NCBI GenBank assembly: GCA_944324365.1
Contig: CALUWA010000022.1
Span: forward strand, 1 to 32,089
Length of the DNA: 32,089 bases
Reading direction: 5' to 3'
Source: Candidatus Gastranaerophilales bacterium
GTDB taxonomy: Bacteria > Cyanobacteriota > Vampirovibrionia > Gastranaerophilales > Gastranaerophilaceae
Shown: piece by piece, positions 21,771 through 30,836 of the stretch
Layout of the letters: the number at the start of each line of letters is the position of its first letter
Position numbering within the stretch: position 1 is the first letter of the stretch
Translations under genes and position numbers: made by a program
The notes under the pieces: model-generated
What the model was told of the DNA's origin: nothing
Database searches by the model: none
Seen by the model: only the letters and a program-made list of their open reading frames with translations

Positions 21771-22164
21771 ACATAACCCATATTATCGGTACCTTTTTAA
21801 TGCAAACGTTCCCTGCATTTCGCTGACGCTCAATGCAAAGATGTTATTTGAGCAAAGCTCAAATTCTTTCAGGGCTCACTATCGCACTTCGTGCACGTTC
21901 GCCTGACTCACTTACGTGAGTAACAGATAGCAGTTTTGCGTGTGCGTAAGCACAATAGCAAAACCAAAAAGATTTTGTGAGCGAAGCGAACAAAACGTAC
22001 GTCCATTTAGTCAAAGCGATGCCGTAGGCAGCGCAACAATCTTTTGCGTGTTTTTTCTTTTTCGGTTCACTTTTTCTTTTTGCACCGCAATTAAAAAGAA
22101 AAAGTGAACAATGAATACATAACTTATGTATGTGTTCGATAGATACACATATCATGGGTTATGT
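21771..22164. repeat. Hairpin-dense non-coding block bounded by 11-bp inverted repeats
   Basis: ACATAACCCAT (21771-21781) and ATGGGTTATGT (22154-22164) are inverted ends 394 bp apart. Between them are many small perfect hairpins with 3-4 nt loops, among them TTTGAGC-AAA-GCTCAAA, GCAC-TTC-GTGC, ACTCAC-TTAC-GTGAGT, GTGC-GTAA-GCAC and TGCC-GTA-GGCA. Also present are a 17-bp perfect stem (22065-22081 with 22093-22109) and the palindrome at 22115-22131. No credible gene was found: the one minus-strand frame through here (about 21859-22155) shows no family motif. It could be a MITE-like element, a structured RNA or a composite intergenic repeat. Confidence 0.65.
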
Positions 22165-22236
22165 AAGGACATACAGCAATGACGTAAAATGAGCTGCGTT
22201 ATAGTGTCGTGCCTCAGGCACTAATTATTAATTATT
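22165..22236. repeat. Dispersed repeat modules shared with the window start
   Basis: This stretch holds GAGCTGCGTT (near 22190) and GTGCCTCAGGCAC (near 22209, a mini hairpin with a TCA loop), both with near-matches in 1-94, and the latter also near 29549. No gene was found. Confidence 0.5.
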
Positions 22237-22266
22237 AAAAAGCACACCTTTTTCAGGTGTGCTTTT
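22237..22266 (-). terminator. Terminator of the ECF sigma / Spy-like operon
   Basis: AGCACACCT (22241-22249) pairs with AGGTGTGCT (22255-22263), with A/T flanks extending the stem. On the minus strand the hairpin is followed by TTTTTAAT, fitting termination of the gene ending at 22286. Confidence 0.85.
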
Positions 22267-22285
22267 CCATTTAATCGGAAGTGGA

Positions 22286-22879
22286 TTATTCCTTAACCGG
22301 AGCCGGAGGAGGCGGAACTTCACCATCTTCCATCGGAGGCATAGGAGGCATTCTCAACATTTGTTTCTTATGTGCTTTTTCAAATGCTTTTCTGCCTTCT
22401 TTTTTCATCTTATTTAATTCTTTAAGCTGCTTTTTCGTCAGAATTGATTCAAATTCTTTCATATTCTGCATACGAATTTCATTTGCCTGTTTTCTTAAAT
22501 CACGCATATCTTTACGTAATTGTGCAAGCTGGGCTTCTTGTTCCTGAACCGCTATTTTTGATTTGCGAACAGCATCCATTTGAGCTCTGGTTTCTCTCAT
22601 TTTTTGCATAATAGGTTCCATTTGCTCATGGCCTTTTGCGCGAATTTCTTTTGCTTGTGCTTTTTGTTCTTCAGTTAACTTTAAGCGTTTTTCAAACTTA
22701 GCCTTATCCATAGGTGGTTTGTGCATTTTTTGTTTAGGGCACTGACAATTGCTAGGTCTTTGCTGTTCTTGCTGAACCGGTTGTGCTTCTTTTGTTGTTA
22801 CAGTACTGGTATCAGATGCAAAAGCTTGAGTTGACATTGTAAGTGCTACTACACCAGCTAAAATCAATAGTTTTTTCAT
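22286..22879 (-). CDS. Spy/CpxP-like periplasmic protein
   Basis: A 197-aa exported protein: signal peptide at 1-21 (AFA then SD), a short Cys pair CQC at 45-47, and a charged all-helical body with two LTxxQ motifs, LTEEQ (68-72) and LTKKQ (147-151), the hallmark of Spy/CpxP/CnrX-like proteins. The C-terminus is Pro- and Met-rich (MPPMPPM), possibly metal binding. Family members act as periplasmic chaperones or as sensors that restrain a stress regulator. It is third in an operon with an anti-sigma-like gene and an ECF sigma gene, 14 bp after the latter, so it is either a regulon output or the sensor for it. Confidence 0.82.
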   Translation of the reverse strand: MKKLLILAGVVALTMSTQAFASDTSTVTTKEAQPVQQEQQRPSNCQCPKQKMHKPPMDKAKFEKRLKLTEEQKAQAKEIRAKGHEQMEPIMQKMRETRAQMDAVRKSKIAVQEQEAQLAQLRKDMRDLRKQANEIRMQNMKEFESILTKKQLKELNKMKKEGRKAFEKAHKKQMLRMPPMPPMEDGEVPPPPAPVKE

Positions 22880-25574: not shown

Positions 25575-28207
25575 GCCATATCCTGCGGCCCTTCGCCCAT
25601 AACCTGAATTCCGAATTTTGTTCTGAACAAATGCTTAACGGTATCAGCTTGAATTTCATACATCATTTTGTTAAACATTTCATAAGCTTCACGTTTGTAT
25701 TCAAGCAATGGATCCTTTTGCCCGTATGCTCTTAAATTAATTCCTTCACGGAGCATATCAATATTGTGCAAATGATCAATCCATTTGTTATCTACAACCC
25801 GCAAAAGGATATCTTTTTCAAGGCTTCTTATAACATTGTCGCTTGTAAACGGCTGCTGCGGAATAAAATTCGGATCATACTGTGATACCACATCATTATA
25901 AAAGTCAATAACTTCTGATTCATGATCACGATATGCTTGCACTGCAAAGTCCTTAAACTTATCATATATCGCATCATATCTCAACCCCTGAACATCAGAT
26001 ACTCCAAAATGGCTCAACTGAGGGAACACAGAATGGAGTTCTTTTATCATGGTATTTAAATCTTCAAAAACATATTCATCAGGATTTTGTTCCGGTGAAA
26101 TATATGTTTTGATAAGTCTTTCCATCTCTTTTTCAATCATATAATAAACATCTTCGCTCAAATCCTTGCCGAAAAGCACTTTTCTTCTTTGGGCATAGAA
26201 CTTTTCACGTTGAATATTCATAACATCATCATATTCAAGGACATTTTTCCTTATGTCGAAATGATATGTTTCGACTTTCTTTTGAGCGGACTGAATTTGT
26301 CTGGATATAATCGGATGTTCAATAGCCATATCTTCTTCGACATTCAAAGCAGTCATAAGACTTGTAATTTTATCCCCGCCAAATATTCTCATCAGGTTAT
26401 CTTCCAATGACAGGAAGAATCTTGTAGAACCCGGATCACCTTGACGAGCGGCACGACCTCGAAGCTGGTTATCAATACGTCTGGATTCATGTCTTTCAGT
26501 ACCGATTACGTGCAAGCCGCCAGCTTCTACAACTTTTGCGTGCTCTTCTTTTGTTATTTTCATTGCTTCTTCCAAAAGTTCGGCCTTTTTAGCTTCGTAT
26601 TCAGGAGTATCCGGCTCAAGCCCGAGATTATCCAATTTTTCTTTAGCCAAATATTCTGCATTACCGCCAAGCAAGATATCTGTACCGCGGCCTGCCATAT
26701 TTGTTGCTATTGTAACTGCACCTACACGACCGGCCTGCGCAATAATATAAGCTTCTTTTTCGTGATGCTTTGCGTTCAAAACATTATGCGGAATACCCTT
26801 TTGAGAGAGTAAATGCGATACATATTCAGATTTTTCGATACTGATTGTACCGACAAGAACCGGGCGTCCCAATTTATGCTGTTCAATAATATCATCTACA
26901 ACAGCATTAAATTTGGCACGTTCTGTTTTATATATAACATCGTGATAATCTTTTCTGATATCAGGTTTGTTAGTTGGAATAACCGTAACTTCAAGGTTAT
27001 AAATCTTACCGAATTCAGCCTCTTCCGTCATCGCAGTACCGGTCATACCTGATAACTTAGGATACAATCTGAACAGGTTTTGGAAAGTAATACTTGCCAA
27101 AGTCTGGGTTTCATCCTGAATTTGCACGCCCTCTTTTGCCTCGATAGCCTGGTGCAAACCATCTGACCAGCGTCTGCCTTCCATAATACGACCCGTAAAC
27201 TCATCAACAATCATTACTTCGTTATTTTTAACAACATAATCGGTATCTTTTATGAACAATTCCTTTGCCTTCAAAGCCTGCAAAAGATGATGAGCATACT
27301 GGTTATTAATATCAAACAAATCTTTAATCTGTAATAAAGCCTGAGCTTTATCAATACCTTCTTCCGTGAGGATTACGTTTTTGTTTTTCTCATCAACTTC
27401 ATAATCAACATCTTTTGTAAGTTGAGGAGCAATTTTTGCCATAACTTTATATAATTCTGCGGATTTTTCAAGGCGGCCGCTTATAATCAAAGGAGTTCTC
27501 GCCTCATCAATCAAAATACTGTCAACTTCATCTATAATTGCATAATTATAAGGCCTTTGAACAAGAGCCTCAGGGCTTTGCGCCATATTATCTCTCAGAT
27601 AATCAAAACCGAACTCATTATTTGTGCCGTAAGTAATATCGCAATCATACGCCGCTTTTTTTGCGGCAAAATCATCCATTGAGCGCCCGCCCGACAGAAT
27701 AACGCCGACAGAAAGTCCGAGAAACTTGTAAATTTTTCCCATCCATTCGCTGTCACGTTTTGCAAGGTAATCGTTAACCGTGATGACGTGAACCCCTTTG
27801 CCTGTCAAAGCATTAAGATATGCAGGTAAAGTTGCAACAAGGGTTTTACCTTCACCGGTTCTCATTTCTGCGATATGACCGTTATGGAGGAAATATCCGC
27901 CGATAAGCTGCACGTCAAAGTGACGCATATTCAAAACTCTTTTACCCGCCTCGCGAACTGTCGCAAAAGCTTCCGGCAAAATTTTATCCAAAGCTTCTTT
28001 TTCTAATTTTCTATCTGTATTAAAATCCTGTGATGTAGGGCGTTTTGAAAGAATCTCTTTAAATTCATCCGTTTTGGCTCTCAATTCTTCATCTGTCATT
28101 GCTGCGAACTGTGGTTCAAGGGCGTTTATATGGTCAATAATCCCCATAATACTTTTAACTTTACGCTCATTAGGGTCGCCCAGTAATTTCATTAACAAAC
28201 TTAGCAT
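25571..28207 (-). CDS. secA: SecA preprotein translocase ATPase
   Basis: An 878-aa motor of the Sec pathway that drives unfolded preproteins through SecYEG. Walker A is RTGEGKT (116-122) and the DEAD-like box follows as [18 protein letters not shown]. The second motor half contains [14 protein letters not shown] and [26 protein letters not shown]. It ends at [14 protein letters not shown] without the C-terminal zinc-binding (SEC-C) motif that binds SecB, as in several lineages without SecB. An insert near 52-66 lengthens the first domain slightly. An extended -10 (TGTTAGAAT, minus strand, 28256-28248) lies about 40 nt upstream, and GGAGAGG provides an RBS. Confidence 0.98.
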
Positions 28208-28247
28208 TATTAAATTTTCCTCTCCAAAGTTGGTATTCTATGGAAAT

Positions 28248-28256
28248 ATTCTAACA
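28248..28256 (-). promoter_or_regulatory. Extended -10 promoter of secA
   Basis: TGTTAGAAT on the minus strand, about 40 nt before the secA ATG at 28207, with GGAGAGG as RBS between them. Confidence 0.55.
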
Positions 28257-28334
28257 TAGACATAGAAGAATTGGCAGTTCTTAAGGAAAAAATAATATTT
28301 CACTGGCAATAATTTAGCACACCAGCAACATTTA

Positions 28335-29138
28335 TTAGTTAAAGAATGGATAATCATCCCTTATCTGCCAGCCGTCCATCATTATTAGAGCCCCGCAGGA
28401 ACCAGTTCCACCAGAAACGCAACATCCGTTTATACCGGAGCAATTCAAAATTTGTTCACGTGAATACTTATAACCGCGAAACAAAATTTTAGACATAGTC
28501 CTATCCAAATACATTTCAAAAATATCCTCCCCGGAGCGATTAGGCTTTCGTTTTCCGTTGAGATCTACCTGAAAATATATATACCTGCCATATGTGCCCG
28601 TATTATCATAAGAATTTTCATACATTAAAGCAAATATCATGCCGTTTTCTGTAATAAAGGAAACTACATTACGATCACACATATCAGCTATAGCTGGAGG
28701 ATGATTAGTTACATATGTATAATTACACGCTGAATTAACTTTAGAACCAGCTTTGCAGTAAGTTATCACTCTTAAATAAGGAGCAAGATACTTTTCAACG
28801 AAATTATTAAGTGAATCACTTACTGCATCAGAATTATCAGGATCCATTGACATATGTTCACCTATCTCCCAATATGTCATATCTCCATAATCTTTCTGTG
28901 CCATTGTTAATGCCTGAGCCATTATTGAATAAGCAACCTTTAACTGGTTCACTGTTACTGTTTTACGGTAATTGTTTATTAATGTCGGAAGCGTCATTGC
29001 CGCTACTATACCAATTATTCCAAGGGTTATCAAGACTTCCGCTAACGTAAATGCTGCTTTCTTTCCGTCATCCTTACTGAGGGAACCGCTGTAATGATAA
29101 ATAGGCGTAAACCCTTGCTCTGACCTAGATACAGACAC
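28335..29138 (-). CDS. Type IV pilin-like protein, 5' end out of frame at a G-tract
   Basis: A prepilin-type protein with the methylation segment AFTLAEVLITLGIIGIVAAM; F30 is the expected mature N-terminus and E34 the +5 glutamate. The globular part has a Cys-rich end (LNCSGINGCCVSGGTGSCG). The frame opens with GTG at 29138, directly after ten G (minus strand), with no RBS of its own. Upstream, a strong promoter, AAGGAGG and ATG (29178) open a short frame that meets a stop soon after the tract. With nine or twelve G the ATG would read straight into the pilin. The gene is therefore either switched off by slippage or affected by a homopolymer error. Likely surface filament or pseudopilin; partners not in the window. 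Confidence 0.8.
   Translation of the reverse strand: MSVSRSEQGFTPIYHYSGSLSKDDGKKAAFTLAEVLITLGIIGIVAAMTLPTLINNYRKTVTVNQLKVAYSIMAQALTMAQKDYGDMTYWEIGEHMSMDPDNSDAVSDSLNNFVEKYLAPYLRVITYCKAGSKVNSACNYTYVTNHPPAIADMCDRNVVSFITENGMIFALMYENSYDNTGTYGRYIYFQVDLNGKRKPNRSGEDIFEMYLDRTMSKILFRGYKYSREQILNCSGINGCCVSGGTGSCGALIMMDGWQIRDDYPFFN
29067..29096. repeat. Repeat unit inside the pilin leader
   Basis: The plus-strand sequence starting GTCATCCTTAC and containing GAACCGC recurs at 29349-29378 in the adjacent intergenic region, with the same spacing. In the pilin frame it encodes HYSGSLSKDD just before the prepilin segment. Confidence 0.65.
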
Positions 29139-29147
29139 CCCCCCCCC
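29138..29147 (-). repeat. Ten-base G homopolymer (slippage site)
   Basis: Ten C on the plus strand, ten G in the sense direction of the pilin gene, between the ATG at 29178 and the pilin frame. A tract length divisible by three joins the two frames; ten does not. Confidence 0.85.
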
Positions 29148-29201
29148 GGTATCTCCGCACTATACTTAGCTTTTGCATACTTCTATCCTCCTTTTTCCTT
29201 T

Positions 29202-29240
29202 AGTATAAACTATGTTCACACTTTTTGCAAGTCTACTTGC
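29202..29240 (-). promoter_or_regulatory. Pilin promoter and overlapping inverted repeat
   Basis: Minus strand: TTGCAA (29230-29225), 17 bp spacer, TATACT (29207-29202), then AAGGAGG (29193-29187) 8 nt before ATG 29178. The inverted repeat GCAAGT-CT-ACTTGC (29227-29240) overlaps the -35 and may be an operator. Confidence 0.6.
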
Positions 29241-29561
29241 ATAACCCTTGTTATGGGAACATAGCGCTTATACTCCTTCCCCTACTTTGGGAATGCAGGG
29301 ATGGGGAGCTAATATCATTCTTAGGCATGAAACCGGCGCCGGTTATCTGTCATCCTTACAAAGTGAACCGCCGTTGTGTAGCTGTCTGTCATCCTGAGCG
29401 TCAGCGAAGGATCTCTTTATACACGAGATTCTTCGGGCTAAAGCCCTCAGAATGACATAATATACTCACCTTAAGGTGAGTCTGGCGAATGTGCACGCAG
29501 TGCTCAATTTTCTTTTGCGTCACACAAAGCTAAGCTCTTCTCCTGCCTCAGGCACAGGACA
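29241..29561. repeat. Repeat-rich intergenic region between pilin and purA
   Basis: No gene was found. It contains a large imperfect inverted repeat at 29387-29457 (arms TGTCATCCTGAGCG and CTCAGAATGACA outermost, with a GGGC-TAAA-GCCC mini hairpin inside), a perfect 18-bp palindrome ACTCACCTTAAGGTGAGT (29464-29481), the repeat unit at 29349-29378, and a TGCCTCAGGCA mini hairpin near 29548. CATCCTGAGCG/GAAGGATCT-type inverted repeats are a widespread intergenic repeat pattern in bacteria. Confidence 0.65.
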
Positions 29562-30836
29562 CTATTTCTTAAAAATCGTCTGCTCTCTATCCGGTCCGAC
29601 ACTAACAATAGAAATTGGAACCCCGAGAAGTTCTTCTAATCTTGCAAGATATTCTTTAGCATTTTCAGGGAGTTTCTCATATTCCCTTATTTCGGTAAGA
29701 GAAGTTTTCCACCCCTTATGACTTTCGTAAACAGGTTCCAAATATTTATGCATATAAACATCTGTCGGATAAGAGTTATAAAGTTTCCCATCCCTTGTAT
29801 CTTTATACGCTGTACAAACTTTTATTTCATCAAACTCATCAAAGACATCAATTTTAGTAAGTGCAATCGTAGTTAACCCGCCAACAAGAACGGCATAACG
29901 CATTGTAACAGCATCAAACCATCCGCAGCGTCTTGGACGACCGGTCGTAACGCCAAATTCATGACCGACTTCCCTGATTCTGTCACCAGTTTCATCCGTA
30001 AGCTCAGTAACAAAAGGCCCCTCGCCAACACGGGTAACATAAGCCTTTGCAACGCCAATAACTTCGTCTATCATCTTTGGCCCGTATCCGCTGCCAGTAC
30101 AAGCCCCACCGCCTATAGGATTTGAACTCGTTACAAACGGATAAGTTCCGTAATCCACATCAAGCATTACCCCTTGCGCGCCTTCAAATAAAATAACCTT
30201 ATCCCGAGATTTTTCCAAAAGCTCCTGCCACTCAAAACAAACATACGGCTTAAAGATTTCTGCATATCTTTCACAAAGCCCGAGTATTTCTTCCCTTGAA
30301 TACCCGCTTAGTCCATAAACATTTTCCAACATCTTGTTTTTAACTGGTAAAATTACATCAAGCTTTTCATTTAAAGTTTCTAAAGAATATAAATCCTGAA
30401 CCTTTAAGCCGATACGAGCATACTTGTCCGTATAAGTCGGACCTATGCCTTTTTTAGTGGTTCCAATTTTTCCTTTTTTTGCATTATCCTCGCTATACCC
30501 ATCAACTTCGGTATGATATGGCATCGTAATAGAAGCAAGCGGACTTACCTTCAAGCGGGAAACATCTATACCATCTTTTATCAAACCTTTTAACTCTTCC
30601 TCAAAATATTCAGGAAGAATCACAGTACCGGCACCTATAAAACAGTCCTTATCCCCATATAAAATACCCGAAGGAATCAAGTGAAATTTAAAAGTTTTAT
30701 CATTTACAACAACAGTATGCCCGGCATTACAACCGCCCTGGTATCTTATAATCAAATCAGCATCCTGAGCTAGCAAATCCGTAATTTTTGCTTTTCCCTC
30801 ATCGCCCCACTGAGCACCTACTACTACCTTATTCAT
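29562..30836 (-). CDS. purA: Adenylosuccinate synthetase
   Basis: A 424-aa enzyme of normal length that makes adenylosuccinate from IMP, aspartate and GTP, the first step towards AMP. It carries the GTP/IMP-binding QWGDEGKAKITDLL near the N-terminus, GGCNAGHTVV, GTTKKGIGPTYTDK, and the C-terminal TTGRPRRCGWFD and LTKIDVFD blocks. The first motif reads GKAK where the family normally has GKGK, a single-residue oddity. The ATG at 30836 has a GGGAAG-type RBS and an extended -10, TGTTAAAAT (30884-30876, minus strand). Confidence 0.98.
   Translation of the reverse strand: MNKVVVGAQWGDEGKAKITDLLAQDADLIIRYQGGCNAGHTVVVNDKTFKFHLIPSGILYGDKDCFIGAGTVILPEYFEEELKGLIKDGIDVSRLKVSPLASITMPYHTEVDGYSEDNAKKGKIGTTKKGIGPTYTDKYARIGLKVQDLYSLETLNEKLDVILPVKNKMLENVYGLSGYSREEILGLCERYAEIFKPYVCFEWQELLEKSRDKVILFEGAQGVMLDVDYGTYPFVTSSNPIGGGACTGSGYGPKMIDEVIGVAKAYVTRVGEGPFVTELTDETGDRIREVGHEFGVTTGRPRRCGWFDAVTMRYAVLVGGLTTIALTKIDVFDEFDEIKVCTAYKDTRDGKLYNSYPTDVYMHKYLEPVYESHKGWKTSLTEIREYEKLPENAKEYLARLEELLGVPISIVSVGPDREQTIFKK

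Follow-up and report, generated by a model that had tools for sequence, protein, structure and literature searches.

Phase variation through poly-G tracts is familiar from Neisseria, from Campylobacter, and from a few Bifidobacterium pili. In Bifidobacterium breve, replication slippage at a G-tract within a gene governs the expression of a sortase-dependent pilus (PMC9187656). Campylobacter jejuni carries 12-29 genes per genome with tracts of G7-G13 in their reading frames, the modal lengths being near 9-10 (PMC8224891, PMC4965091), in a background that lacks mismatch repair (PMC4235727). Neisseria has G/C tracts of 9-20 in the pilus genes pilC and pglA, and repeats occur in only 23 of 607 pilS alleles (PMC5953494).

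The locus described here lies on the minus strand of a window of 32,089 nucleotides (the whole stretch of DNA that was analysed) from a Candidatus Gastranaerophilales bacterium; its SecA has its closest matches on contigs of that group. The locus resembles the B. breve system in that the host is a gut commensal, the G-tract lies early in a pilin gene, and the default state is out of frame; however, B. breve has one or two tracts per genome and LPXTG sortase pilins (PMC9187656), whereas the genome studied here has about 32, before type IV pilin-like genes with long, repeat-built leaders, in an unrelated phylum. As in the poly-G/C contingency loci of C. jejuni, G tracts sit within reading frames and have a similar modal length, but the Campylobacter tracts are found in diverse surface-modification genes, whereas here one structural family holds nearly all of them and MutS is present. 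With the type IV pili of Neisseria (PMC5953494), the locus shares pilin diversity, G/C tracts in pilus genes, and probable conversion between copies; there, the main pilin owes its variation to recombination from silent pilS, whereas here most pilin copies have a promoter-like site, a start, and a G tract of their own. The mechanism itself is known. No paper on this system was found in the open-access literature that was searched, and to that extent its scale, its gene family, its repeat-built leaders, and its lineage are new.

A sequence-only reading of the window had proposed that a run of exactly ten G separates a well-formed start from a pilin frame, and each element of that proposal was recovered where it had been placed: the tract, the promoter-like site, the Shine-Dalgarno sequence, the ATG, and an ATG frame that, with ten G, ends soon past the tract (Table 1). 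From this ATG to the tract there are 31 bases, and the pilin frame, closed by a stop 12 bases 5' of the tract, extends down to position 28335. The reading was also correct that nine or twelve G would bring the ATG frame into the pilin frame and that the latter otherwise opens only at a GTG (position 29138), which overlaps the tract's final G and lacks a ribosome-binding site (RBS). The joined frame would encode about 280 aa. Paralogs have TATC where this locus has TGTC, and this GTG is therefore not a conserved start. The same -10 region is found again 5' of the tract in paralogous loci. The tract is the only G/C run of at least 8 in the whole window, and its 8-mer was matched three times, against a mean of 0.08 in 100 dinucleotide shuffles.

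Table 1. Features of the putative switch locus (positions in the window)
Feature	Position	Strand	Remark
Promoter-like TTGCAA-17-TATACT	29202-29230	-	Consensus match only, 9/12; conserved across paralogs
Shine-Dalgarno AAGGAGG	29187-29193	-	
G10 tract (putative switch)	29138-29147	-	One of 38 source-genome tracts of at least 8
OFF-state frame with ten G: ATG 29178, 17-aa MQKLSIVRRYRGGGVCI, TAG 29127-29125	29125-29178	-	
Leader, tract to prepilin motif, 25 codons, open in pilin frame	29061-29137	-	
Type IV pilin-like protein KAAFTLAEVLITLGIIGIVAAMTLP..., 241 aa plus stop	28335-29060	-	PF07963 N_methyl
365-bp block, 100% identical to C27 paralog, including G10	28846-29210	-	
REP-like dispersed repeat GTCATTCTGAGGGC...GCTCAGGATGAC, upstream of pilin cassette	29388-29456	-	Sequence inspection

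The encoded protein matches PF07963 above the cut-off (E value of 2.1e-5) as well as TIGR02532, and it has a prepilin N-terminal motif followed by a hydrophobic helix, predicted at residues 6-58. The AF2 model of the pilin has a pLDDT of 77.8, and a fold search with the pilin domain returned no significant PDB match. One prepilin peptidase gene (PF01478, on contig C23) is present in the source genome. Type IV prepilin leaders are typically about 5-30 aa long, a range exceeded by the predicted leader of about 39 aa here and by those of the paralogs, which reach about 200 aa. Given this long leader, and since cleavage is only predicted, we name the protein pilin-like rather than a canonical type IV pilin.

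The association between G tracts and this gene family extends over the whole source genome (2.05 Mb in 36 contigs, 99.8% complete), which has 38 G/C tracts of at least 8, versus about 2-4 expected (about 2 by the run-length statistics of the window), and about 57 pilin genes of the LAEVLITL type. When the list of tracts was matched to that of pilins, 31 tracts fell at most 700 bases upstream of a LAEVLITL pilin on the same strand, and one more, before a variant pilin (GFSAAEMLVVLL), brings the count to 32 (binomial P of about 1e-55 for the association). Of the other six tracts, three belong to cassettes that look decayed, one is a chance run at the junction of an etf gene, and two fall within other reading frames. 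We note a G14 tract at C4:69191 in a non-pilin reading frame (GKPLCFGDLGLLADLLVQ...; L102, L025), possibly another phase-variable gene. A strong RBS and an ATG lie 18-45 bases 5' of nearly all pilin tracts of the source genome, and some pilins are without a start. The mature pilins show dN/dS values of 0.1-0.25, indicative of purifying selection, even for pairs of which both members are OFF; together with the open leaders described below, this suggests that the pilin copies are expressed at times.

In the source genome, the RBS-ATG and the pilin are in phase (ON) at 6 loci, with tracts of 9, 11, 11, 11, 14, and 14 G, and the OFF loci are in the +1 phase in about 22 cases and in the third phase in 1. 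Among the 129 open-leader loci of all sampled genomes, 19 are in frame, 71 are in one OFF phase, and 39 are in the other, so that the in-frame share, at 15%, falls short of one third (nominal P of 1e-6, an optimistic value since the loci are related). The leaders between tract and pilin, which reach about 190 codons in paralogs, are themselves informative: over 3234 leader codons of the source genome, only 7 stops occur in the pilin frame, all in two broken copies, whereas the two remaining forward frames contain 131 and 251 and each reverse frame about 150. Most other tract genomes have leaders that are likewise stop-poor in the pilin frame, and the leaders of OFF copies are open too. Such nearly stop-free leaders are hard to explain unless ribosomes enter the pilin frame via the tract, and an open frame under selection that reaches back to the tract contradicts expression starting 3' of it, an outcome that the sequence-only reading had named as a refutation.

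Several source-genome leaders (e.g., L055, L064, and L047) read like REP-like dispersed repeats (e.g., RRISLNKRSFA.AQDD and IASSQAPRND), of the kind that lies upstream of the cassette in the window. These repeats stay free of stops in the pilin frame, much as do the in-frame palindromic elements known from Rickettsia, and a number of them have further matches in the window, at about 1-200 and 21800-22400. We considered an RNA hairpin in which an anti-Shine-Dalgarno sequence after the tract masks the RBS, and we rejected it, as the pairing was strong in one genome only (G012) and the RBSs of other genomes pair equally well; a search for Rfam RNA elements found none.

Tract lengths range from 8 to 14, with a mode of 10. 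There are 47 close pairs, whose 120 flanking bases differ by no more than 12 substitutions (paralogs and related species, not strains); tract length differs in 20 of them, which is, per base, about five times as often as indels occur in the flanks. The clearest pair sets a G11 tract that is ON (C1:18519) against a G12 tract that is OFF (C17:39642), their flanks being 95.8% identical. A fixed in-frame tract in relatives had been named as a second possible refutation, and related genomes showed instead several lengths and all three phases. Nevertheless, the lengths vary less randomly than would be expected of freely slipping tracts: 13 of the 15 class A loci of the source genome have G10, as do 15 of 17 species at the orthologous locus behind secA in genus g15, with a conserved frame architecture. 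A mutational optimum near ten, selection for the OFF state, and copying of the 5' module could each contribute to this constancy. Poly-G tracts of Campylobacter have an insertion bias at G8-G9 and a deletion bias at G10-G11 (PMC8224891), which leads to a similarly narrow peak of lengths. Loss of mismatch repair as a cause of the variation was rejected, because 12 of the 13 genomes in the genus have MutS; its presence also implies that switching may be slower than in Campylobacter.

The 365-bp block shared with the C27 paralog spans the -10 element, the tract, and the leader and extends to codon 71 of the mature pilin; beyond it, the flanks of the two loci are unrelated and the rest of the pilin has diverged. 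Sequence identity of this kind suggests a recent gene conversion of the switch module. Other pairs show leaders at dS 0.05-0.15 against mature pilins at dS 0.4-1.8. The pilin cassette sits in the gap between purA and secA (window 28207-29562). In relatives (L105, L106, and L107), this gap measures about 100-190 bp in two and is occupied in L105 by an unrelated ORF some 400 codons long, and it thus appears to behave as an insertion spot. A class A cassette was also seen in a genome of genus g26 (G205:C38, 1328-1641; L321), 91% identical over 315 bp to the source-genome C13; since that genus is otherwise nearly tractless, either horizontal transfer or misbinning may account for it.

Of the 286 genomes of the order that were sampled, 118 have the RBS-ATG-G9 architecture. 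They represent 27 of 50 genera, nearly all come from one family, and all three frame states occur among them; a control search with the reversed pattern gave near-zero matches. The rest of the phylum yielded scattered matches only, a few per genome. N_methyl genes number 25-92 in the tract genomes of the genus and 4-9 in most of its tractless ones. The exception is G001, with 50 N_methyl genes and zero G tracts. An assembly effect was rejected as the reason, as the copies inspected there (L342-L348) have long leaders read in frame straight from the RBS-ATG, which makes this genome a natural tractless counterpart. Some of its leaders contain repeated FTLAEGG(H/Q)SPL segments 5' of the real prepilin motif. 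In another cyanobacterial family (G536:C80, C220, and C244; G535:C104; G487:C3), a short start, ATG..TTAGCAAAACTTATC..G9-11 (M.xLAKLI), was observed before G tracts. The class A cassette was absent from IMG/VR contigs, where 54 generic matches were found, none before a pilin.

We regard slipped-strand phase variation of a pilin repertoire, the reading initially proposed from the window, as the best explanation and a probable one, supported by the roughly 32 like loci, the spread of tract lengths, the coexistence of ON and OFF states, and the coding leaders. As in contingency loci, the repeat is uninterrupted and, at ten G, long enough to slip (a G/C run of at least 7-8 suffices), a change in its length shifts the frame of a coding sequence under selection, and related copies differ in tract length. 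An improbable, though not negligible, alternative is that the OFF tract is the working state and that RNA polymerase slippage or ribosomal frameshifting provides low constitutive expression of all copies. Such recoding would fit the prevalence of one OFF phase per genus (mostly +1 in the own genus and mostly the other in g15), the interrupted tracts G3AG6 (twice), G8AG, and G7TG4, which hold the same +1 OFF phase, and the open leaders of OFF copies. It would also fit the position of stops, which fall at most 6 codons past the tract in the ATG frame of 96 of 110 OFF loci, versus 57 for the other OFF frame. However, loci of one class may share a phase because the module was copied between them recently, no stimulatory motif common to the loci came to light, and tract lengths are as scattered as 8-14. 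Moreover, some copies are in frame (19 of 129) and the OFF direction varies by genus, so that the out-of-frame arrangement is not universal, at variance with a programmed frameshift or transcript slippage. Low-level recoding of the preferred out-of-frame state possibly occurs alongside switching.

The exchange between copies suggested by the C22/C27 identity, and by leaders far less diverged than mature pilins, raises another scheme, reminiscent of pilE/pilS of Neisseria, in which most copies are silent or decayed donors, variation arises by gene conversion, and the G tract is a by-product or an aid to recombination. The pilins that lack a start would agree with it, but most copies carry their own promoter-like site, RBS, and ATG, in contrast to promoterless pilS donors that serve one expression site, and their open leaders and dN/dS values argue for expression at times; we therefore hold this scheme to be very unlikely. 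Poly-G is hard to sequence and often breaks contigs (PMC4235727), and many contigs of one genome (G014, among them C23, C32, C81, C91, C105, C119, and C163) end a few bases from a G tract, a pattern also known from Illumina assemblies of meningococci, which could reflect sequencing dropout or length polymorphism. That the true tract is in frame everywhere and the rest is sequencing or assembly error nevertheless seems hardly credible, as out-of-frame lengths occur at many loci in independent assemblies of many species, with several lengths and three phases, and as the excess falls in frame-specific classes.

According to the phase-variation model, replication slippage at the poly-G tract would gain or lose a G and thereby join or separate the RBS-ATG and the pilin frame, resulting in random ON/OFF switching of the pilin-like protein. 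The locus would be one of about 32 such switches in the source genome, the majority of which stand OFF in the assembled consensus; their tract lengths would flip within a population, and their pilins presumably reach the cell surface. A more tentative extension, which we put forward as a possibility rather than as an expectation, is that gene conversion spreads the 5' module (promoter, start, poly-G, repeat-built leader, and pilin helix) through dozens of pilin genes that differ in their outer domains and that the copies slip independently, so that each cell would display a changing small subset of pilins, a combinatorial surface variation in gut Gastranaerophilaceae. Overall, a common but poorly cultured lineage of the animal gut, a non-photosynthetic relative of cyanobacteria, appears to devote at least 30 loci per genome to one switched pilin-like family, with tract counts of up to about 130 per genome in relatives. 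If confirmed, this would rank among the largest single-family phase-variable repertoires and would explain the expansion of pilin genes in the family.
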